51,265 nucleotides of DNA from Pseudolabrys sp. (lineage in GTDB: Bacteria; Pseudomonadota; Alphaproteobacteria; Rhizobiales; Xanthobacteraceae), in NCBI GenBank assembly GCA_009694265.1, contig SHVM01000009.1, forward strand, positions 1 to 51,265, in the 5' to 3' direction. Shown in pieces: positions 6,806 to 32,708 of this stretch. The position numbers were made by a program, and so were the translations under genes. The notes below the pieces were generated by a model. That model ran no database searches. It was given only the letters and a program-made list of their open reading frames with translations, and had not been told where the DNA came from. How positions within the stretch are numbered: position 1 is the first letter of the stretch; the number at the start of each line of letters is the position of its first letter.

Positions 6806-7741
6806 TTAGAAAAACCCCACCGATTCGCATCCCGTTCCGGCTTTGAAGCTGTGCTTGGTGCGCCGCTGCGGGATATCGATGACGTGCATCGATCCGTCGC
6901 CCTGGCAGCCGACGAACAGTTCATCCCCGCGAAATGCGAAATCCATCGGCTCGCTGCCGACTGGCACAGCTGTCTGCGCGCCGAATGAAGCGTCGATCAA
7001 GCTCACCATGTTGCTGTTCAGGCTGCTGACGACGACCAGGCGACCATCGGGGGAATAGCGCGCGATCTGGGCTGCCTTCGGCACGCCTTCGAGACGCACC
7101 TCGCGGGTGACTTTCCCGGCCGCCGTGTCGATCAGGAATAAGACTGGCGCTTCGTCGCTGACCGCGACCACCGTGCGGCCGTCATTGGAGACGGCGATGC
7201 CGGCAAGCGCCTGCGGGGTCTTGATCTTGCCCAGCAGTTTGCGGTTCGGCACATCGATCACCGAGACCGTGGCGTCTTCCTCGTTGTCGGTGTAGAGCCG
7301 CTGCCCGTCGGGCGCGATGGCGAGCCGGTGACCGTTGGTCGAACCGCTCTCGATGGTGTCGATCATCTTGTTGGTTTTCGGATCGATCACCGCCACCACC
7401 GCACTGTTTTCGCAGGTGATGTAGGTCAGCCCATCGGCGCCCAGCCTGACCGTGTGCGGCGCGCTATAGGGGCGCAGGTCGATGTCGCCGGCACGCTTGC
7501 GTTTGAGCAGATCGATGACATGCAGCACGTGTCCGGGGTTTGGGTTGCGGCCGTGGATGCCGTCGCCGAAGATTGGAACATAGGCCAGCCTGGTTTCCGG
7601 GATCACAAGCAATTCGTGAACGGTGCGCTGGAAGCCCTCGATCACAGTCTCCGTTTCATAAGTTTGCGGATTGAGAAACAGGATTTTGCAGCCGATTTTG
7701 TCGACCGCGATCATGCCGCGCACGGCGCTTGAGCTTGTCAT
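6806..7741 (-). CDS. YVTN-type beta-propeller repeat protein
   Basis: The 311-residue protein consists of repeated blades with the pattern (V)xVIDxxxxK, for example AVIDPKTNKMIDTI, VSVIDVPNRKLLGKI, LFLIDTAAGKVTREV and HVIDIPQRRTKHS, so it should fold as a seven-bladed propeller. No signal peptide is seen from the chosen start, so it is probably cytoplasmic. The start ATG at 7741 overlaps the stop of the class II aldolase gene (ATGA, 7738-7741), which argues for translational coupling and against a longer reading from 7807. Function is unknown. The partner genes suggest a role in small-molecule (possibly sugar-acid or aldehyde) metabolism. Confidence 0.85.
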   Translation of the reverse strand: MTSSSAVRGMIAVDKIGCKILFLNPQTYETETVIEGFQRTVHELLVIPETRLAYVPIFGDGIHGRNPNPGHVLHVIDLLKRKRAGDIDLRPYSAPHTVRLGADGLTYITCENSAVVAVIDPKTNKMIDTIESGSTNGHRLAIAPDGQRLYTDNEEDATVSVIDVPNRKLLGKIKTPQALAGIAVSNDGRTVVAVSDEAPVLFLIDTAAGKVTREVRLEGVPKAAQIARYSPDGRLVVVSSLNSNMVSLIDASFGAQTAVPVGSEPMDFAFRGDELFVGCQGDGSMHVIDIPQRRTKHSFKAGTGCESVGFF

Positions 7742-8526
7742 CGCTTGGCCTTCGATTTGCGTTTGGCTGGGGCTGTTTTTGCGGGTTTGGCCTTCGGCAT
7801 GCGCCAATTGCCTTCCGCCTTGTCGAGCCGCACCGACCAGTATTCCCAGGCGCGCGCGACCGGGCCCGGCCGCAGATTATATTCGCCGGCGAGATCTGTC
7901 TCGGCGGCGGTGAGCGGCGACACATTGCCGAGACCGTGTGCCTGGATCTGCATTGCCGCGTTGCGCGCCGTGTAGATGGTGCGGAACGTGAGTTCCTCGA
8001 GCGTCGTGCCGGCCACCGTTGCACCATGCCGGCGCATCAGCACGATCCAGTTAGGGCCCAAAGCGCGCGCCAGCGAGGCGCCTTCCTCGGGCTTGGCCAC
8101 GATCAGATTGGTGTCGCCGAAGTCATCGCGGCTGTCCCAGAACGGCACCTTCGCGCCCAGCGTCGCGCCGAGATGATAGACGGCTTTCAGCTCCATGCCG
8201 GAAATGCAGAACGGCAGGATCGACGGCGCGTGATGGTGGCAGACCGCCATCACCTCCGGCCGTGCCTTGTAGATTTCGCCGTGGATGACACGCTCGCCAT
8301 AGAGTCGCATCTCGACCGGCTTGACGATCTGCGAATCGAGCGTGAATTCGAGAATATCCTCCGCCTGCACCAGCTCCGGCCCGCGCGAATACGACATCAG
8401 ATAGCGGCCCGGATCGGCCGGATGCCGCATGGTGACGTGGCCGAAGGCATCGAGCACGCCTTCGTTGGCGATCATGCGGTTGGCGCGCGCGAGCAGCTCG
8501 CGGGCGGCGTCGAGTTTGCTTGGCAC
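7738..8526 (-). CDS. class II aldolase/adducin family protein
   Basis: The fold is that of the zinc-dependent L-fuculose/L-ribulose-phosphate aldolase or epimerase superfamily. Expected metal ligands are visible in CHHHAPS and in the later RRHGATV. The family N-terminus LLARANRMIANEGVLDAFGHVTMRHP is intact, and the acidic residue in GEIYKARPEV is in place. The C-terminal 20 residues are Lys/Ala-rich. The protein has 262 residues, longer than simple sugar-phosphate aldolases and typical of the broad decarboxylase/aldolase subgroup. Its substrate cannot be told from sequence. It lies 23 bases downstream of gloB and overlaps the beta-propeller gene by 4 bases. Confidence 0.87.
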   Translation of the reverse strand: MPSKLDAARELLARANRMIANEGVLDAFGHVTMRHPADPGRYLMSYSRGPELVQAEDILEFTLDSQIVKPVEMRLYGERVIHGEIYKARPEVMAVCHHHAPSILPFCISGMELKAVYHLGATLGAKVPFWDSRDDFGDTNLIVAKPEEGASLARALGPNWIVLMRRHGATVAGTTLEELTFRTIYTARNAAMQIQAHGLGNVSPLTAAETDLAGEYNLRPGPVARAWEYWSVRLDKAEGNWRMPKAKPAKTAPAKRKSKAKR

Positions 8527-25381: not shown

Positions 25382-28180
25382 ATGATCGGCGCTGTCGCCC
25401 GCAAGCTGTTTGGCTCCGCCAATGAACGGCGGATTCGCAGCTATCAGCCGCGGGTCGATGCCATCAACGCCATGGAATCCGAAATCGCGGCACTCTCCGA
25501 TGACGCGCTCAAGGCGCGCACCGCCGAACTCAAAAAACAAGTCGCCGACGGCACCTCGCTCGACGATATTCTGGTGCCGGCCTTCGCCACCGTGCGCGAG
25601 GCGGCCAAGCGCACCATCGGCCAGCGCCATTTCGACATGCAGTTGATCGGCGGCATGATCCTGCATGAGGGCAAGATCGCCGAGATGAAGACCGGCGAAG
25701 GCAAGACCCTGGTTGCAACCCTTTCGGTCTATCTCAACGCGCTGTCGGGTCGCGGCGTGCATGTGGTGACCGTCAACGACTATCTCGCCAAGCGCGACGC
25801 GGAATGGATGGGGCAGATCTATAATTTCCTCGGACTGACCGTCGGCAATATTGTGCATGGGCTCGACGACGAGGAACGCAAGAAATCCTACGACTGCGAC
25901 GTCACCTACGGCACCAATAACGAGCTCGGCTTCGACTATCTGCGCGACAATATGAAGTACCGCATGGAGGACATGGTCCAGCGCGGCCACATCTACGCCA
26001 TCGTCGACGAAGTGGACTCCATCCTGATCGACGAGGCGCGCACGCCGCTGATCATTTCCGGCCCGCTCGACGACCGTTCTGAATTTTATAACACCATCGA
26101 CAGCTATATCCCGGCGCTCGACAAGACCGATTTTGAGGTCGACGAGAAGCAGCGCACAGTGACGCTGACCGAAGCCGGCATGGAGAAACTCGAGCAGCGG
26201 CTGCGCGCGGCTGACGAGCTCAAGGGTGAGTCGCTCTACGACGTCGAGAACGTCTCCGTCGTCCACCACGTCAACCAGGCGCTGCGCGCCCACAAGCTGT
26301 TCCAGCGCGACAAGGACTACATCGTGCGCGGCGGCGAGGTGGTCATCATCGACGAATTCACCGGCCGCATGATGCCGGGCCGGCGCTATTCGGAAGGGCT
26401 GCACCAGGCGCTGGAGGCCAAGGAGCATCAGCCGATCCAGCCGGAGAACCAGACGCTCGCCTCGATCACTTTCCAGAACTATTTCCGCATGTACGAGAAG
26501 CTCTCGGGCATGACCGGCACGGCGCTTACCGAGGCCGACGAGTTCATGGACATCTATGAACTCGAAGTGCTGGAAGTGCCGACCAACATGCCGCTGGTGC
26601 GCATCGACGACGACGACGAAGTCTACCGCACGGCAAAAGAGAAATACCGCTCGATCATCACATTGATCGAGGACTGCAAGCTGCGCGGCCAGCCGGTGCT
26701 GGTCGGCACCACGTCGATCGAGAAATCCGAGCAGCTCGCCGAAATGCTGCGCGAGGCCGGCTGGGAGGCGCACGACTTCACCGACCCCAATGCCTTTGCC
26801 GCGCTCTATTCCGGCGACGACGGCGCCACCAAGACCAAGGTGTTCGCCATCCTCAACGCCCGCTACCACGAGCAGGAAGCCTTTATCGTCTCGCAGGCCG
26901 GCGTGCCAGGCGCCATTACCATCGCCACCAATATGGCCGGCCGCGGCACCGACATTCAGCTCGGCGGCAATGCCGACATGCGCATTCGCCAGGAAATTGC
27001 CGATATCGAGGATCCGCGCGCGCGCGAGAAAAGTTCGCAAGCCGATGAAATCCGCAAGCAGATCGCGCGCCTGAAAGAAAAGGCGCTCGCCGCCGGCGGT
27101 CTGTTCGTGCTCGGCACCGAGCGGCACGAGAGCCGGCGCATCGACAACCAGTTGCGCGGCCGCTCCGGCCGTCAGGGCGATCCCGGCCATTCCAAGTTCT
27201 TCCTGTCGCTGGAAGACGACCTGATGCGCATCTTCGGCTCCGACAAGCTCGACGGCATGCTGACCAAACTGGGCCTGAAGGAAAACGAAGCGATCATCCA
27301 TCCGTGGATCAACAAGGCGCTGGAAAAGGCGCAGCAGAAGGTCGAGGCGCGCAACTTCGACATCCGCAAGAACCTGCTCAAATTCGACGACGTGATGAAC
27401 GACCAGCGCAAGGTGATCTTCGAGCAGCGGCTCGATCTGATGCGCGACGAGGCGGTTGATGAGACCGTCGCCGACATGCGCCATTCGGTGATCGACGAGC
27501 TGGTCGCCAAGCATATCCCGGCCAACGCCTATGCCGAACAGTGGGACGTGGCCGGTCTGGATACCGCGCTGCGCGAAGTGCTGACGCTCGAACTTCCGGT
27601 GCAAGACTGGGCGAAAGAGGAAGGCATCGCGGACGAGGAAATGCGCGAGCGCATCGAGCGCCGCGCCGACGAATGGATGGCGGGCAAGGTCGCCAAATGG
27701 TCCCCCGATGTCATGCGCTATGTCGAGAAATCGATTTTGCTGCAGACGCTCGACCATCTCTGGCGCGAGCATCTGGTCATGCTCGAGCACCTGCGCCAGG
27801 TGATCGGTCTGCGCGGCTATGGCCAGCGCGATCCGCTCAATGAATACAAGGCGGAGGCTTTCAGCCTGTTTGAGGCGATGATCTCGCATTTGCGCGAGGC
27901 GGTCACTGGCCAGCTCATGCGCGTTGAGATCGTGCAGCCGCCTTCGGACGAGGACGCCGCCAAGCTTCCCTATATGGAAGCCCACAAGGTCAATCCCGAT
28001 ACCGGCGAGGACGAAATGGCGCTAGCTCCAGCGCCAAAGACGCCGGCGCTCGCCGGCAACGGTACGCAGGTCGAGCGCAATCCGAACGATCCTGCAAGCT
28101 GGGGCAAGGTCGGCCGCAACGAGGAGTGCCCGTGCGGCTCCGGCAAGAAATACAAGCACTGCCACGGCCGCTTCAGCTGA
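25382..28180 (+). CDS. secA: preprotein translocase ATPase SecA
   Basis: SecA is the motor that pushes preproteins through SecYEG. In order: Walker A in [12 protein letters not shown] (about residues 101-112), [13 protein letters not shown] (Walker B, about 209), the preprotein cross-linking domain, NBD2 with [24 protein letters not shown] and [10 protein letters not shown], and the helical scaffold and wing. The C-terminal linker ends in a [14 protein letters not shown] zinc-binding motif that in other bacteria docks SecB and ribosomes. It has 932 residues, normal for alphaproteobacteria. The last 60 or so codons are duplicated at the end of the next gene. The ATG is preceded by taggag. Confidence 0.98.
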
Positions 28181-28220
28181 CACTTGTCGCGTCGCGCCAT
28201 CGGTTCGACGCGATGCAACG

Positions 28221-28253
28221 ATCTGGCGCGGATCGTCAAATTCGCCAGATTTT
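28221..28253 (+). terminator. possible intrinsic terminator after secA
   Basis: An 8-bp stem, atctggcg (28221-28228) paired with cgccagat (28243-28250), is followed by a short T-run. The 14-base loop and only four T make it weak. If it works, the next gene would need its own promoter in the remaining 65 bases. Confidence 0.35.
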
Positions 28254-28319
28254 GTGCGCCGTGCAGACGAGGAATACCGACCCTAGTCGCCGTTATGGTC
28301 CAGCCCAGAGTCGCCATCC

Positions 28320-30548
28320 ATGCCGCCGTCCGCCGATCCGCAATTCCGGAAAGCTCTCCGTGATCTGGAAGCGGCTGTCGCTCTGCAGGACCAGGGACTC
28401 GCCATAAAGGCGGATCTGCAATTTCAAAAGGTGCTCAAGAAGCATCCCGACTATTTCGATGCGCTGCACTTGTACGGGCTTTTCAAGTATCAGCGGGGGC
28501 AGTTCGATGACGCCCACCGGCTGATCGCGAAAGCCTTGAAAGTCAACCCCCGCTCGGCCAATGCCCTGAACAGCTTCGGTGTGGTGCTGCAAGCACTCGG
28601 GCGGCCCGCGAACGCGCTGGCCGCGTTCGAAGGGGCGCTTGCGATAAATTCAAATCTCGTGCCCGCGCTCAGCAACCGTGGCTGCGCGTTGAATACATGC
28701 GGTCGCTTTCAAGACGCGCTCGTCAGTCTCGATCGCGCGCTGGCGATCGATGCGCGCTACGTCGAAGCAGCCGTCAATCGCGGCGCCGCGCAACTTGCGC
28801 TCAGGCGCAACGCCGAGGCGCTAGAGAGCTACGACCACGCGCTCAAGCATGCGCCGAACATGGCCGACGCCTGGTTCGGACGCGGCAATGTTCTTTATAT
28901 TCTCAAGCGCTATGGCGAAGCGGCCGTCGCCTATGACAAGGCATTCACGCTAAATCCCCAATTATCCAGCGCGGAAGGTGCGCGCCTGCATAGTAAGATG
29001 CTTGCCGCTGATTGGAGCCATTTCGATACAGAATGCGCGCACCTGCTTTCAGCGGTACGCGGCGGCAAGCTCGCAGCGTCCCCATTCGTGCTGCTTTCGA
29101 TGCCCGCGACGGCCGAGGATCAGTTTGAGAACGCGAAGCGCTACAGCGCATCAAAGCCCCCTGTATCCGACAAGCCACTTTGTCACGGCGAAAAATATGC
29201 GCACGGAAAGATCCGGCTGGCCTATTTGTCGGCCGACTTCGATCTTCACCCGGTCGCGCATTTGTTGGCCGGAATGTTCGAGCAGCATGATCGCTCGCGA
29301 TTTGAGACATTCGCTATATCTTTTCAGCCCGACAGGCCGGGCGAGATGCTGACCCGGCTGAAAGCTGCGTTCGACCGGTTCATTGACGTTTCAAACCGCG
29401 GCGATTTCGAGATAGCGCAGTTGCTGCGCTCGCTTGAAATCGATATCGCGGTGGATCTCATGGGCTACACCATGAATTCGCGGCCGGCGATCTTGGGCTG
29501 CCGCCCCGCGCCGATCCAGGTGAGCTATCTGGGCTATGCCGCGACGATGGCTGCAAAGCACATCGATTATATTGTCGCCGACCGTATCGTCTTGCCGGAC
29601 GAAGAACGGAAATACTTCACCGAGAAAGCGGTCCGCTTGCCACATACCTTTATGGTGAGCGACTCCAAGAGGCTCATTTCAGCACATACGCCGAGCCGCG
29701 CGGACTGCGGCTTGCCGGAGAACGGTTTTGTTTTTTGCGCCTTCAATAACGTCTATAAGATTCTGCCGAAAACGTTTGATATATGGATGCGCTTGCTGGG
29801 GCGCATCGATAATGCAGTGTTGTGGCTGAACAGCGCGGATCAAAGCGCGGTCCGGAATCTGCGCCGGGAAGCGGAAAATCGCGGTATCGATCCGGCGCGA
29901 CTGGTCTTTGCCGAGCGCGTGCCGCGGAATGAGGATCACCTAGCACGTCATCGGCTGGCGGACCTGTTTCTCGATACGCTGCCTTACAACGCTCACAGCA
30001 CCGCCAGCGATGCATTGTGGGCTGGCCTTCCGATTGTGACGTGCACCGGAACGAGCTTCGCCAGCCGCGTGGCCGCGAGCCTGCTCTATGCCGTTGGCTT
30101 ACCGGAATTGGTCACCGCCACTCCACAAGCCTACGAGGCGCTGGCCTTCGAACTTGCTACGTCTCCGCCAAAGCTTGCGGAGTACAAGCAGAGGCTGGCG
30201 ACAAACCGGTTGGTTGCGCCCTTGTTCGACACCGCGCGCTTTACGCGGCACATCGACGCCGTTTTTGGCGTGATGATCGATCGCCATCGGGCCGGCAAAG
30301 CTCCGGACCACATGGATCTTGGCGAGCAAACGTCCTCCGCAGATTACATGGAATCGTCCAAGGCGGGTCCGGCCGGCGAGGCAGCGATGGCCCCGGCACC
30401 GGCTCCGAGCGTGTTCGCGGCCGGCAATGGCGCGCAGACCGAGCGCAATCCGAACGATCCCGCAAGCTGGGGCAAGGTCGGCCGCAATGAGGAGTGCCCG
30501 TGCGGCTCCGGCAAGAAATACAAGCATTGCCACGGCAAGTTTGTCTGA
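28320..30548 (+). CDS. TPR/GT41 (O-GlcNAc transferase-like) protein with a SecA-type C-terminal zinc tail
   Basis: Residues about 20-215 contain around five to six tetratricopeptide repeats (for example [21 protein letters not shown]). Residues about 295-660 form a GT41 glycosyltransferase domain of the SPINDLY/OGT type: [68 protein letters not shown] and [20 protein letters not shown]. Such enzymes move GlcNAc or another sugar to Ser/Thr of cytosolic proteins. The last 60 or so residues copy SecA's tail, ending [17 protein letters not shown]; residues 708-739 are identical to SecA. The sugar, targets and role of the tail are unknown. Base composition is less GC-rich than secA, which may indicate acquisition. 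Confidence 0.9.
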
Positions 30549-30576
30549 TATTCGCCGCGCCGGCATCTCGGCATGA

Positions 30577-30609
30577 AAAACGCCGGGCATCCCCCGGCGT
30601 TTATTTTTG
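30577..30609 (+). terminator. intrinsic terminator after the TPR/GT41 gene
   Basis: A perfect GC-rich stem (acgccggg / cccggcgt, loop of a few bases) is flanked by A's on the left and tttattttt on the right, at 30577-30609. It is the clearest intrinsic terminator in the window. It should end the secA-GT41 transcript before the monooxygenase gene. Confidence 0.85.
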
Positions 30610-30657
30610 CAGATTGTGCAATACTATCGCTTGCTCGCCGCGTTCACGGGTTTCGCA

Positions 30658-32424
30658 ATGACAATGGTCGACGATCGCAAGCGCGTTACGCCGCCGTCCG
30701 ATGCCGAAGGCTGGCTCGCGGCGTTCGCATCCGCTTTGCAATTGCAAGATGCCGCGGCGGCGGCATTGTTTTTACCGGATGGACTCTGGCGCGACGTGTT
30801 GGCGTTTACCTGGAGCTTGCAGACCATGGCGGGCCAGCGGTCAATCGAGGCGACGCTGCGCCAGACAATCGTGCGGACAAAGCCCGCAAATTTCCGTTTT
30901 CCGGCAAGACGAACGCCGCCGCGATGGGTCAGCCGCGCGGGCACCGAGACAATCGAGGCTATCTTCGAGTTCGAGACCGCGTTCGGCCATGGCAACGGTG
31001 TTGTGCGCCTGGTTCCCGATCCGAAACTACCCTCGCGTCTGCTCGCCTGGACGCTTGTGACAACGTTGCAGGAACTCAGAGGACACGAAGAGTCTTTCGC
31101 AATCCGCGGCGCCTGCGCGGACGACAATACGCGCGACTTTGGCGGTGCAAACTGGCTCGATCGTCTCAATGATGCGCGCAGCTTTGCCGATCGCGACCCC
31201 ACGGTCGTTGTTGTCGGCGGCGGTCAGGCCGGGCTCTCGATTGCCGCGCGTTTGCATCAGCTCGGGATCGATACGCTGATCATCGACCGGCACCAGCGGA
31301 TCGGCGACAATTGGCGCAAGCGGTATCATTCGCTGTCGCTGCACAATGAAGTGCATGTGAATCATCTGCCCTATCTGCCGTTCCCGCCAACTTTTCCGAC
31401 CTATATTCCGAAGGACAAGCTGGCCAACTGGTTTGAGTCCTACGTCGAAAGCATGGAGCTGAATTTCTGGACCGGGACCGAGCTGGTCGACGGTAGCTAC
31501 GATGCAAAGCGCAAGCATTGGACTGTCACGCTGCGCAAATCGGACAGCAGCACCCGCGTCATGCGCCCGCGTCATCTCATCTTTGCGACCGGCGTGAGCA
31601 GTATTCCCTATACGCCTGAGCTGCCCGGTCTCGGTTCGTTTGCCGGCGCGGTCGTGCATTCGGGCGATTACGCGGACGGCGGCCAATGGAAGGGCCGCAA
31701 GGCTTTGGTGCTGGGAACCGGCACCAGCGGCCACGACGTTGCCCAGGATCTTTTTTCACGTGGCGCCGATGTCACGCTGATCCAGCGCAGCAAGACTTAT
31801 GTCGTGAGCCTGAAAGAGGCGCAGAGCGTCTACGCGATTTATTCCGAAGGCATTCCGTTCGAGGATTGCGATCTGCTGGCGACCTCGTTTCCTTATCCGG
31901 TTCTGCAGCGCGCCTATCAGCTTTCAACCGCGCAGGGCCGCCAGGTCGACAAGGCGCTTCTCGATGGCCTCACGGCACGCGGTTTCCGGCTGCATTTCGG
32001 GGAGGACGATACCGGCTTCCAGATGATGTATTTGCGGCGCGGCGGCGGATATTATTTCAACGTCGGATGTTCCGATCTGATTATTTCCGGCCAGATCGGC
32101 CTGCTGCAATATGCCGACATCGAAACATTTGTCGCGCAGGGAGCAAAGCTGCGCGACGGTCGGGTGATGCCGGCCGACCTGCTGGTGCTGGCGACCGGCT
32201 ACAAGAACCAGCAGGAGGTCGTTCGCGCATGCCTTGGCGACGCGATTGCCGATCGCGTGGGTCCGGTCTGGGATTTCGATGAGGGCGGCGAATTGCGTAA
32301 TATGTGGCGGCAAACCGCGCAGCCGGGCCTCTGGTTTACCGCCGGAAGCCTGGCGCAATGCCGGATTTATTCGCGCTATCTGGCAATCCAGATCAAGGCG
32401 ATCGAAGAAGCGCTGTTGAGCTAA
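30658..32424 (+). CDS. flavin-containing monooxygenase-like FAD/NADPH oxidoreductase with N-terminal NTF2-like region
   Basis: Residues about 15-150 look like an NTF2/SnoaL-type domain (WLAAFASALQLQDAAAAALF, FEFETAFGHGNGVVRL). A group B flavin monooxygenase follows, with the FAD-binding VVVVGGGQAGLSIAARL near residue 183. The FMO signature FxGxxxHxxxY appears as FAGAVVHSGDY, the NADPH-binding motif as LVLGTGTSGHDVAQDL, and ATGYKN lies near the end. Such two-part proteins occur among bacterial YUCCA-like enzymes; the substrate is unknown. I chose the ATG at 30658 (588 residues) because an upstream TTG lies inside the terminator. Its stop overlaps the convergent GIY-YIG gene. Confidence 0.88.
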   Translation: MTMVDDRKRVTPPSDAEGWLAAFASALQLQDAAAAALFLPDGLWRDVLAFTWSLQTMAGQRSIEATLRQTIVRTKPANFRFPARRTPPRWVSRAGTETIEAIFEFETAFGHGNGVVRLVPDPKLPSRLLAWTLVTTLQELRGHEESFAIRGACADDNTRDFGGANWLDRLNDARSFADRDPTVVVVGGGQAGLSIAARLHQLGIDTLIIDRHQRIGDNWRKRYHSLSLHNEVHVNHLPYLPFPPTFPTYIPKDKLANWFESYVESMELNFWTGTELVDGSYDAKRKHWTVTLRKSDSSTRVMRPRHLIFATGVSSIPYTPELPGLGSFAGAVVHSGDYADGGQWKGRKALVLGTGTSGHDVAQDLFSRGADVTLIQRSKTYVVSLKEAQSVYAIYSEGIPFEDCDLLATSFPYPVLQRAYQLSTAQGRQVDKALLDGLTARGFRLHFGEDDTGFQMMYLRRGGGYYFNVGCSDLIISGQIGLLQYADIETFVAQGAKLRDGRVMPADLLVLATGYKNQQEVVRACLGDAIADRVGPVWDFDEGGELRNMWRQTAQPGLWFTAGSLAQCRIYSRYLAIQIKAIEEALLS

Positions 32425-32708
32425 GCGCGCATCGTCATGCGTCTGGCGGCGCGCTTGTCTTTGATAGTGAGCGCCAGCTTCTTTCTGAACTTGCGGTCGC
32501 GCTTCAAGTGCCACTCGCGGCTCATGGCTGCGCGGCGGGTCGGGAACCATTCCGAATGCAACAGCACCCAGGCGCGCCCGCGCGTCGTGCGCGCACCCTT
32601 GCCGGTGTTGTGCTGCTTGAGACGCCGCATGACATCGTTGGTCCAGCCAACATAGGTCAGGTGGCGGGTTTCGGCGCGGCTGCCGAGGACGTAGACGAAG
32701 CAATCCAT
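32421..32708 (-). CDS. GIY-YIG endonuclease-domain protein
   Basis: This 95-residue single-domain protein has the motif as FVYVLGS ... LTYVGWTNDVMRRLKQHNTG. Arg in the next helix, and Glu in SREWHLKRDRKFRKKL, stand where the catalytic residues are expected. It belongs to the UPF0213/YhbQ-like small group, whose cellular role is not firmly known; DNA repair has been proposed. Its stop codon overlaps that of the convergent monooxygenase gene (32421-32424). It lies 30 bases upstream of nothing on its own strand, so it is probably monocistronic. Confidence 0.88.
   Translation of the reverse strand: MDCFVYVLGSRAETRHLTYVGWTNDVMRRLKQHNTGKGARTTRGRAWVLLHSEWFPTRRAAMSREWHLKRDRKFRKKLALTIKDKRAARRMTMRA

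Follow-up and report, generated by a model that had tools for sequence, protein, structure and literature searches.

In a 51,265-nt stretch of contig SHVM01000009.1 from Pseudolabrys sp., which as a whole is called the window here, the gene after secA encodes a protein with tetratricopeptide repeats (TPR) and a glycosyltransferase domain of family GT41, and this protein ends in a copy of the C-terminal tail of SecA. The fusion of GT41 with SEC-C adjoining secA is real. The full reading, i.e., that the TPR-GT41 gene gained a SecA tail, that the tail was later kept alike by recombination and that it is a docking module, is given about an even chance. TPR repeats (by several TPR models), Glyco_transf_41 and SEC-C were recognized in one open reading frame (ORF), all above Pfam cut-offs. 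Glyco_transf_41 (PF13844) scored 269.9 bits against a cut-off of 25, and SEC-C (PF02810) scored 37.3 bits against 20.4, next to 37.5 for SecA's own SEC-C. All four presumed metal ligands (CxC...CH) are kept in the GT41 tail. An initial annotation of the window, made from the letters only, had described the gene after secA as a TPR protein with GT41 and a lower GC content, and Pfam and composition agree (GC 0.598 vs 0.617 in secA; third-position GC, GC3, 0.705 vs 0.832). The stretch it marked starts at 28015, which falls within secA, and the GT41 gene begins at 28320.

The enzyme part has its closest solved relatives in human O-GlcNAc transferase (OGT; phmmer E 1.6e-101) and XcOGT (PDB 2jlb; 2e-81). 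In the alignment, His310 (FDLHP) and Lys480 (FNNVYK) have a His and a Lys as their counterparts in human OGT chain 7yea_A, which we take to be the catalytic-site residues H558 and K842. Bacterial GT41 O-GlcNAc transferase homologues such as XcOGT and human OGT have the same TPR and Glyco_transf_41 plan. However, the match stops 5 and 13 residues short of the chain end in XcOGT and human OGT, respectively, and the SecA tail is extra here. The tail aligned with SecA peptides of solved structure, i.e., 1ozb_I, 1sx0, and 1tm6, and its likeness to SecA includes the linker (30345-30543 against secA of genome G060, 205 bases, 82%). It has the linker and 13-letter motif of the SecA tail (PF02810) and is near-identical to the neighbouring SecA, whereas it sits on a glycosyltransferase and its linker is without the YMEAH..TGEDE pattern.

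The source genome assembly has 2.49 Mb in 119 contigs. SEC-C matches at E ≤ 1 were found there in secA and the GT41 gene only, Glyco_transf_41 matched this GT41 gene only, in two stretches, and a SecB gene is present. An assembly error that joined two secA ends is hardly credible. The genome is in many contigs, and an assembler might be confused by ends that share a nearly identical 96 bp, but the copies can be told apart in the motif, the linker, the final codons and the 3' flank, and a GT41 gene adjoining secA was seen independently in genome G022. In addition, the post-secA sequence of relatives resumes at 32471, from where the window again resembles them, and no further SEC-C motif turned up in this genome, which is 91% complete.

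The shared end of 32 codons that had been reported for the two genes was recovered. Positions 28073-28168 and 30441-30536 differ at three bases, all synonymous, i.e., CCT/CCC, AAC/AAT, and CAC/CAT, each a third-position C/T difference. The weaker similarity upstream, to YMEAHK (27971) and YMESSK (30345), likewise holds over about 67 residues with gaps. Between the linkers, 36 of 90 aligned bases differ, and the synonymous difference of the two tails is about 0.66 in the linker and 0.16 in the motif. Past the motif the similarity falls off again, in the last three codons and 3' of them.

This contrast was set against 703 pairs of 38 tails (36 secA tails of the genus, the window secA and the window GT41), which are not independent of one another. 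Among 318 other pairs with an equal or greater linker divergence, the smallest motif difference was 8 bases, against 3 in the window pair. Where the motif varies from species to species, the two window copies agree in their residues. Within the secA/GT41 pair, Fisher's test gave p = 0.0016 with rounded multiple-alignment counts; when codons for identical residues were counted conservatively by hand, p was 0.02. Relative to its linkers, the window pair thus has unusually similar motifs, and gene conversion or a different kind of exchange probably made the two 96-bp blocks alike once the tail had been gained. Taken by themselves, synonymous sites point to this weakly.

An orthologous GT41 (73% identity) was found in G022, a genome of the same genus, with a likely start 16 nt past the secA stop. 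Many genes around secA are common to G022 and the window. The G022 protein ends in ...PDHISVPA*, whereas the window protein has PDHMD at this place and then the tail. Since the orthologue is without it, the SecA tail is probably an add-on to GT41. The two related species offer a natural experiment, i.e., the same enzyme with and without SecA tail beside the same gene. In G022 (L035, G022:C26:20149-22190), the 16-nt spacing between secA and GT41 suggests co-transcription. A ribosome-hibernation-like gene, recognized by eye, follows GT41 there, and a similar one lies directly after secA in G061.

Among the secA ends of 36 relatives, some with short flanks, only G022 showed a GT41 match of at least 120 residues beside secA. 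The SecA tree places G022 together with G011 and G062, and the window near G060, G027, G031, and G066 (moderate support). Synonymous divergence (dS) between the window and G022 is 1.14 for GT41 and 0.50-0.69 for secA, argJ, accA, a surA-like gene and ldt. A recent transfer of GT41 between the two was rejected, because its dS is above that of these five neighbouring genes. The shared position therefore points to an old presence with losses, or to separate arrivals at a hot spot.

The initial annotation had proposed that the end of the neighbouring secA was duplicated and fused, or is kept alike by gene conversion. Both the addition of the tail and later gene conversion are probable, but the origin from the window's own secA was not borne out. 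The GT41 linker differs from secA of G060 at 26 of 96 bases, of G024 at 29 of 96 and of G027 at 30 of 96, i.e., it is nearer to these than to the neighbouring secA (36 of 90), so the donor could be the window's own secA, its ancestor or another lineage. A fusion formed from the secA of another lineage, transferred and then recombined through the motif with the resident secA would be expected to carry a linker of foreign type next to a motif like the resident one. We consider this unlikely. It agrees with the nearest linkers, with the low GC3 of the GT41 gene, with the distance in the SecA tree of G022, which shares GT41, and with a linker synonymous difference of 0.66 against 0.32-0.38 for whole secA (G060, G031, G022). 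However, secA linkers are themselves fast (synonymous difference 0.48-0.70 between the window secA and six relatives), the linker is short and gapped, the high GT41 dS does not point to a recent transfer between G022 and the window, and no donor was found.

The main rival explanation, possible but rather doubtful, is that GT41 DNA entered a hot spot at the 3' end of secA and that the tail is a useless by-product, fused in frame by chance. The tail could, for instance, be the old secA end, moved away together with its stop and terminator, with its motif kept alike by gene conversion. Genes past secA do differ among the 15 relatives with flanks read. In G004 (L118, G004:C1:476000-495000), a degraded second secA 3' end lies at 487365-487465, 7.8 kb after the intact secA, a hint that the secA end has recombined repeatedly in the genus. 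This second end is behind unrelated genes (a permease-like ORF by eye), out of frame with them, and is nearest to the secA end of G029 (95% over 82 nt). The decay of SecA-conserved residues in the GT41 linker fits a by-product too. A terminator-like stem of 10 bp is found after the GT41 tail and not after secA, and stems of at least 8 bp lie 23-61 nt past secA in 7 of 36 relatives; yet any gene end may bear such a stem, and terminator-like sites in 27900-30750 are at chance level (3 found, 2.8 expected). Against an accident stand the whole tail being in frame and beginning no more than about 15 codons from where the orthologue stops, the metal motif free of amino-acid change despite wide linker divergence, and the recurrence of SEC-C on related enzymes.

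The initial annotation had named many GT41 proteins with SEC-C tails as a case that would speak for an old, general fusion. No second GT41 with SEC-C was found in the genomes searched. In the order, class, family and phylum searches for GT41, two candidates were scored per genome. GT41 matched in 66 of 397 genomes of the order and 71 of 385 of the class, the source genome counted in each, and the 65 and 70 others were scanned for SEC-C. None of the 172 GT41 places in order and class carries SEC-C, and the closest of 208 SEC-C places is 5.7 kb away. In the family, GT41 matched in 129 of 391 genomes, of which 80 were scanned; none of the 100 listed GT41 places carries SEC-C, compared with 117 SEC-C places, and the nearest SEC-C is 101 bp away in a separate ORF on the opposite strand (G988). 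In the genus, SEC-C matched in 38 of 43 genomes, including the source, and the search for GT41 covered 36 of these 43; compared by eye, no coincidence of the two was seen besides the window. In the phylum (67 of 398 genomes with GT41), no listed match other than the window extends past residue 705. A tblastn search of plasmids with the whole protein gave 169 matching records, and none of the 30 matches listed extends past residue 672; nine records beyond those 30 have a best place of at least 60% identity. Two candidates were rejected. The GT41 alignment of G009 to residue 738 runs across stops, in a genome without SEC-C, and G177:C2 aligns unbroken to residue 719, yet that contig has no SEC-C match. 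In seven genomes of genus g28 (G278, G877, G897, G914, G929, G956, G978), GT41 and a SEC-C ORF of secA size lie on opposite strands at a distance of 11.5-12.2 kb, in a conserved neighbourhood.

SEC-C tails were also found on other glycan-type enzymes. Of 325 SEC-C places in order, class and family, 80 stretches were examined, mostly frames unlike full SecA. A GT4 with SEC-C lies 1.9 kb after a GT41 gene in L128 (G1018, 7063-8388), and a GT2-like enzyme with SEC-C was found in L136 (G1024, 424-1284). FkbM methyltransferases, which are often found in glycan clusters, end in SEC-C in L172, L179, and L194 (G341, G855, and G1084, respectively), and L184 has a similar FkbM-like ORF by eye. In L198 (G1080), a Methyltransf_24 methyltransferase ends in SEC-C, and its likeness to rhamnosyl O-methyltransferase is under the model cut-off. 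Two more SEC-C ORFs, each truncated by the end of its contig, are no more than 1.3 kb from a GT41 gene, in L127 (G988, 3-440) and L129 (G973, about 7200-7300). L127, L128, L129, and L136 belong to another genus of the family, g416, and GT41 genes occur in three of these four loci. The GT4, GT2-like and FkbM enzymes (L128, L136, L172, L179, L194), all from the same bacterial family, resemble the window protein as enzymes ending in SEC-C, and the GT4 and GT2-like ones are glycosyltransferases as well, but no SecA linker was seen on them and no secA was noticed in the stretches examined. The motifs of L127 and L128 are without the SecA linker and differ at 9-10 of 57 bases from secA of their own genomes, so these tails appear older or independent. 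Radical SAM/SPASM-type proteins with C-terminal SEC-C were recognized as well, by Pfam in L151 and L145 and by likeness to L151 in L152 and L153.

A function of the tail can be proposed from the isolated SecA tail. In one study (PMC6620043), SUMO fused to the SecA tail, or the metal domain alone, co-sedimented with ribosomes, modification of the metal-binding cysteines of the fusion disrupted this, and crosslinked products of the tail fusion were recognized by antibodies to uL23, at the exit. These SUMO fusions indicate that the SecA tail is functional when transplanted. The study also refers to previous work in which the metal domain binds SecB, and 1ozb is described there as a SecA peptide complexed with SecB (PMC6620043). 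Because the isolated tail behaves so, the copy on GT41 should address the enzyme to SecB and/or the ribosome exit, and such recruitment is plausible by analogy. The initial annotation had likewise proposed recruitment to SecB or nascent chains, which the SecB gene of the source genome fits as well.

The course of events may be as follows. The GT41 gene would have acquired a copy of the SecA tail, i.e., a flexible Pro/Ala linker and the metal-binding motif, and recombination between the near-identical 96-bp ends would later have kept this copy like that of SecA. The enzyme is predicted to modify Ser/Thr of proteins captured by its TPR superhelix, with a presumed sugar donor and presumed targets. 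The tail would be a separate docking module, putatively metal-bound, that holds the enzyme at SecB and/or near the ribosome exit, so that a subset of nascent or SecB-held proteins could be modified.

For most GT41 enzymes of bacteria the targets are not known. Docking through the tail, if it occurs, would show how a bacterial cytosolic O-glycosyltransferase finds its substrates, and it would tie protein glycosylation to Sec targeting. A tentative, wider idea is that SecA-type metal tails are a transferable docking tag, repeatedly added to glycan-modifying enzymes in the family. SEC-C on GT4, GT2-like and FkbM enzymes, some beside GT41, would be expected if docking of such enzymes is useful. 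If true, cytosolic protein glycosylation would be brought to SecB-held or nascent export substrates as a glycosylation branch of Sec targeting, by a tag that was here taken from a secA end and sits beside secA.

Several findings weigh against docking and against selection for it. The fusion was seen in one genome, so conservation gives no indication of selection, and three of three synonymous motif changes are too few to prove it. Gene conversion by itself can give motif identity without function, and the synonymous motif codons alone are unexceptional, with three or fewer differences in 10 of 666 secA pairs. As noted, secA linkers diverge fast as well, and the YMEAH..TGEDE element conserved in the SecAs of the genus is decayed in the GT41 copy. 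The GT4 and GT2 cases bear the metal motif only, and SEC-C occurs on many unrelated proteins too, as a mobile motif should: radical SAM/SPASM enzymes by Pfam, and UPF0149-like proteins, repeat proteins and further ones by eye.

Rather than choosing targets, the tail might compete with SecA for SecB or ribosomes, or regulate the GT41 enzyme, which seems quite improbable. In PMC6620043, the linker part of the SecA tail is proposed to be autoinhibitory and the metal domain to relieve this. However, the proposed autoinhibition uses the substrate groove of SecA, which GT41 presumably does not have.

The proposed link between glycosylation and Sec export would be new in part. The family of the enzyme and the mobile docking motif are known, and their combination and genomic setting were not found described; among the open-licence papers listed, the titles and abstract openings mention no SecA tail on GT41 or on any other glycosyltransferase. 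On the other hand, the idea of SecA-like metal domains as possible accessory Sec components is already raised in a 2021 review (PMC8076867). YecA/AscA and YchJ, as described in this review, likewise carry a SecA-like metal domain on a non-SecA protein, but their functions are chaperone-like or unknown, whereas here an enzyme beside secA carries a tail copy including the linker (PMC8076867).

Features of secA and the adjoining GT41 gene, in window coordinates
Feature	Position	Strand	Remarks
secA, 932 aa	25382..28180	+	intact ORF; own C-terminal tail
SecA C-terminal tail, linker from YMEAHK, then metal-binding motif	27971..28180	+	alignment
96-bp motif block in secA	28073..28168	+	3 synonymous differences from 30441-30536
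Gap between secA and GT41 gene, 139 nt	28181..28319	+	folding energy ordinary, z -1.2
Weak terminator-like stem, 6 bp, the sole one in the gap	28228-28245
TPR-GT41 glycosyltransferase with SEC-C tail, 742 aa	28320..30548	+	intact ORF, Pfam
Tetratricopeptide repeats, residues ~35-214	28422..28961	+	Pfam
GT41 catalytic region, two Pfam stretches	29196..30251	+	Pfam; His310 and Lys480
Appended SecA tail copy, YMESSK to stop	30345..30548	+	missing in G022 orthologue
96-bp motif block at GT41 end	30441..30536	+	near-identical to secA block
SEC-C motif, Pfam PF02810, residues 722-740	30483..30539	+	presumed ligands Cys726, Cys728, Cys737, His738
Terminator-like stem, 10 bp, and T run	30578..30602	+	30 nt 3' of GT41 stop

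A consensus scan of the E. coli type found no sigma-70-like promoter in 27900-30750. Downstream of the GT41 gene, 30549-32459 had no blastn match among the secA loci of the 17 relatives compared. The gene between GT41 and ldt (30607-32424) showed flavin-monooxygenase-type matches below NCBIfam cut-offs.

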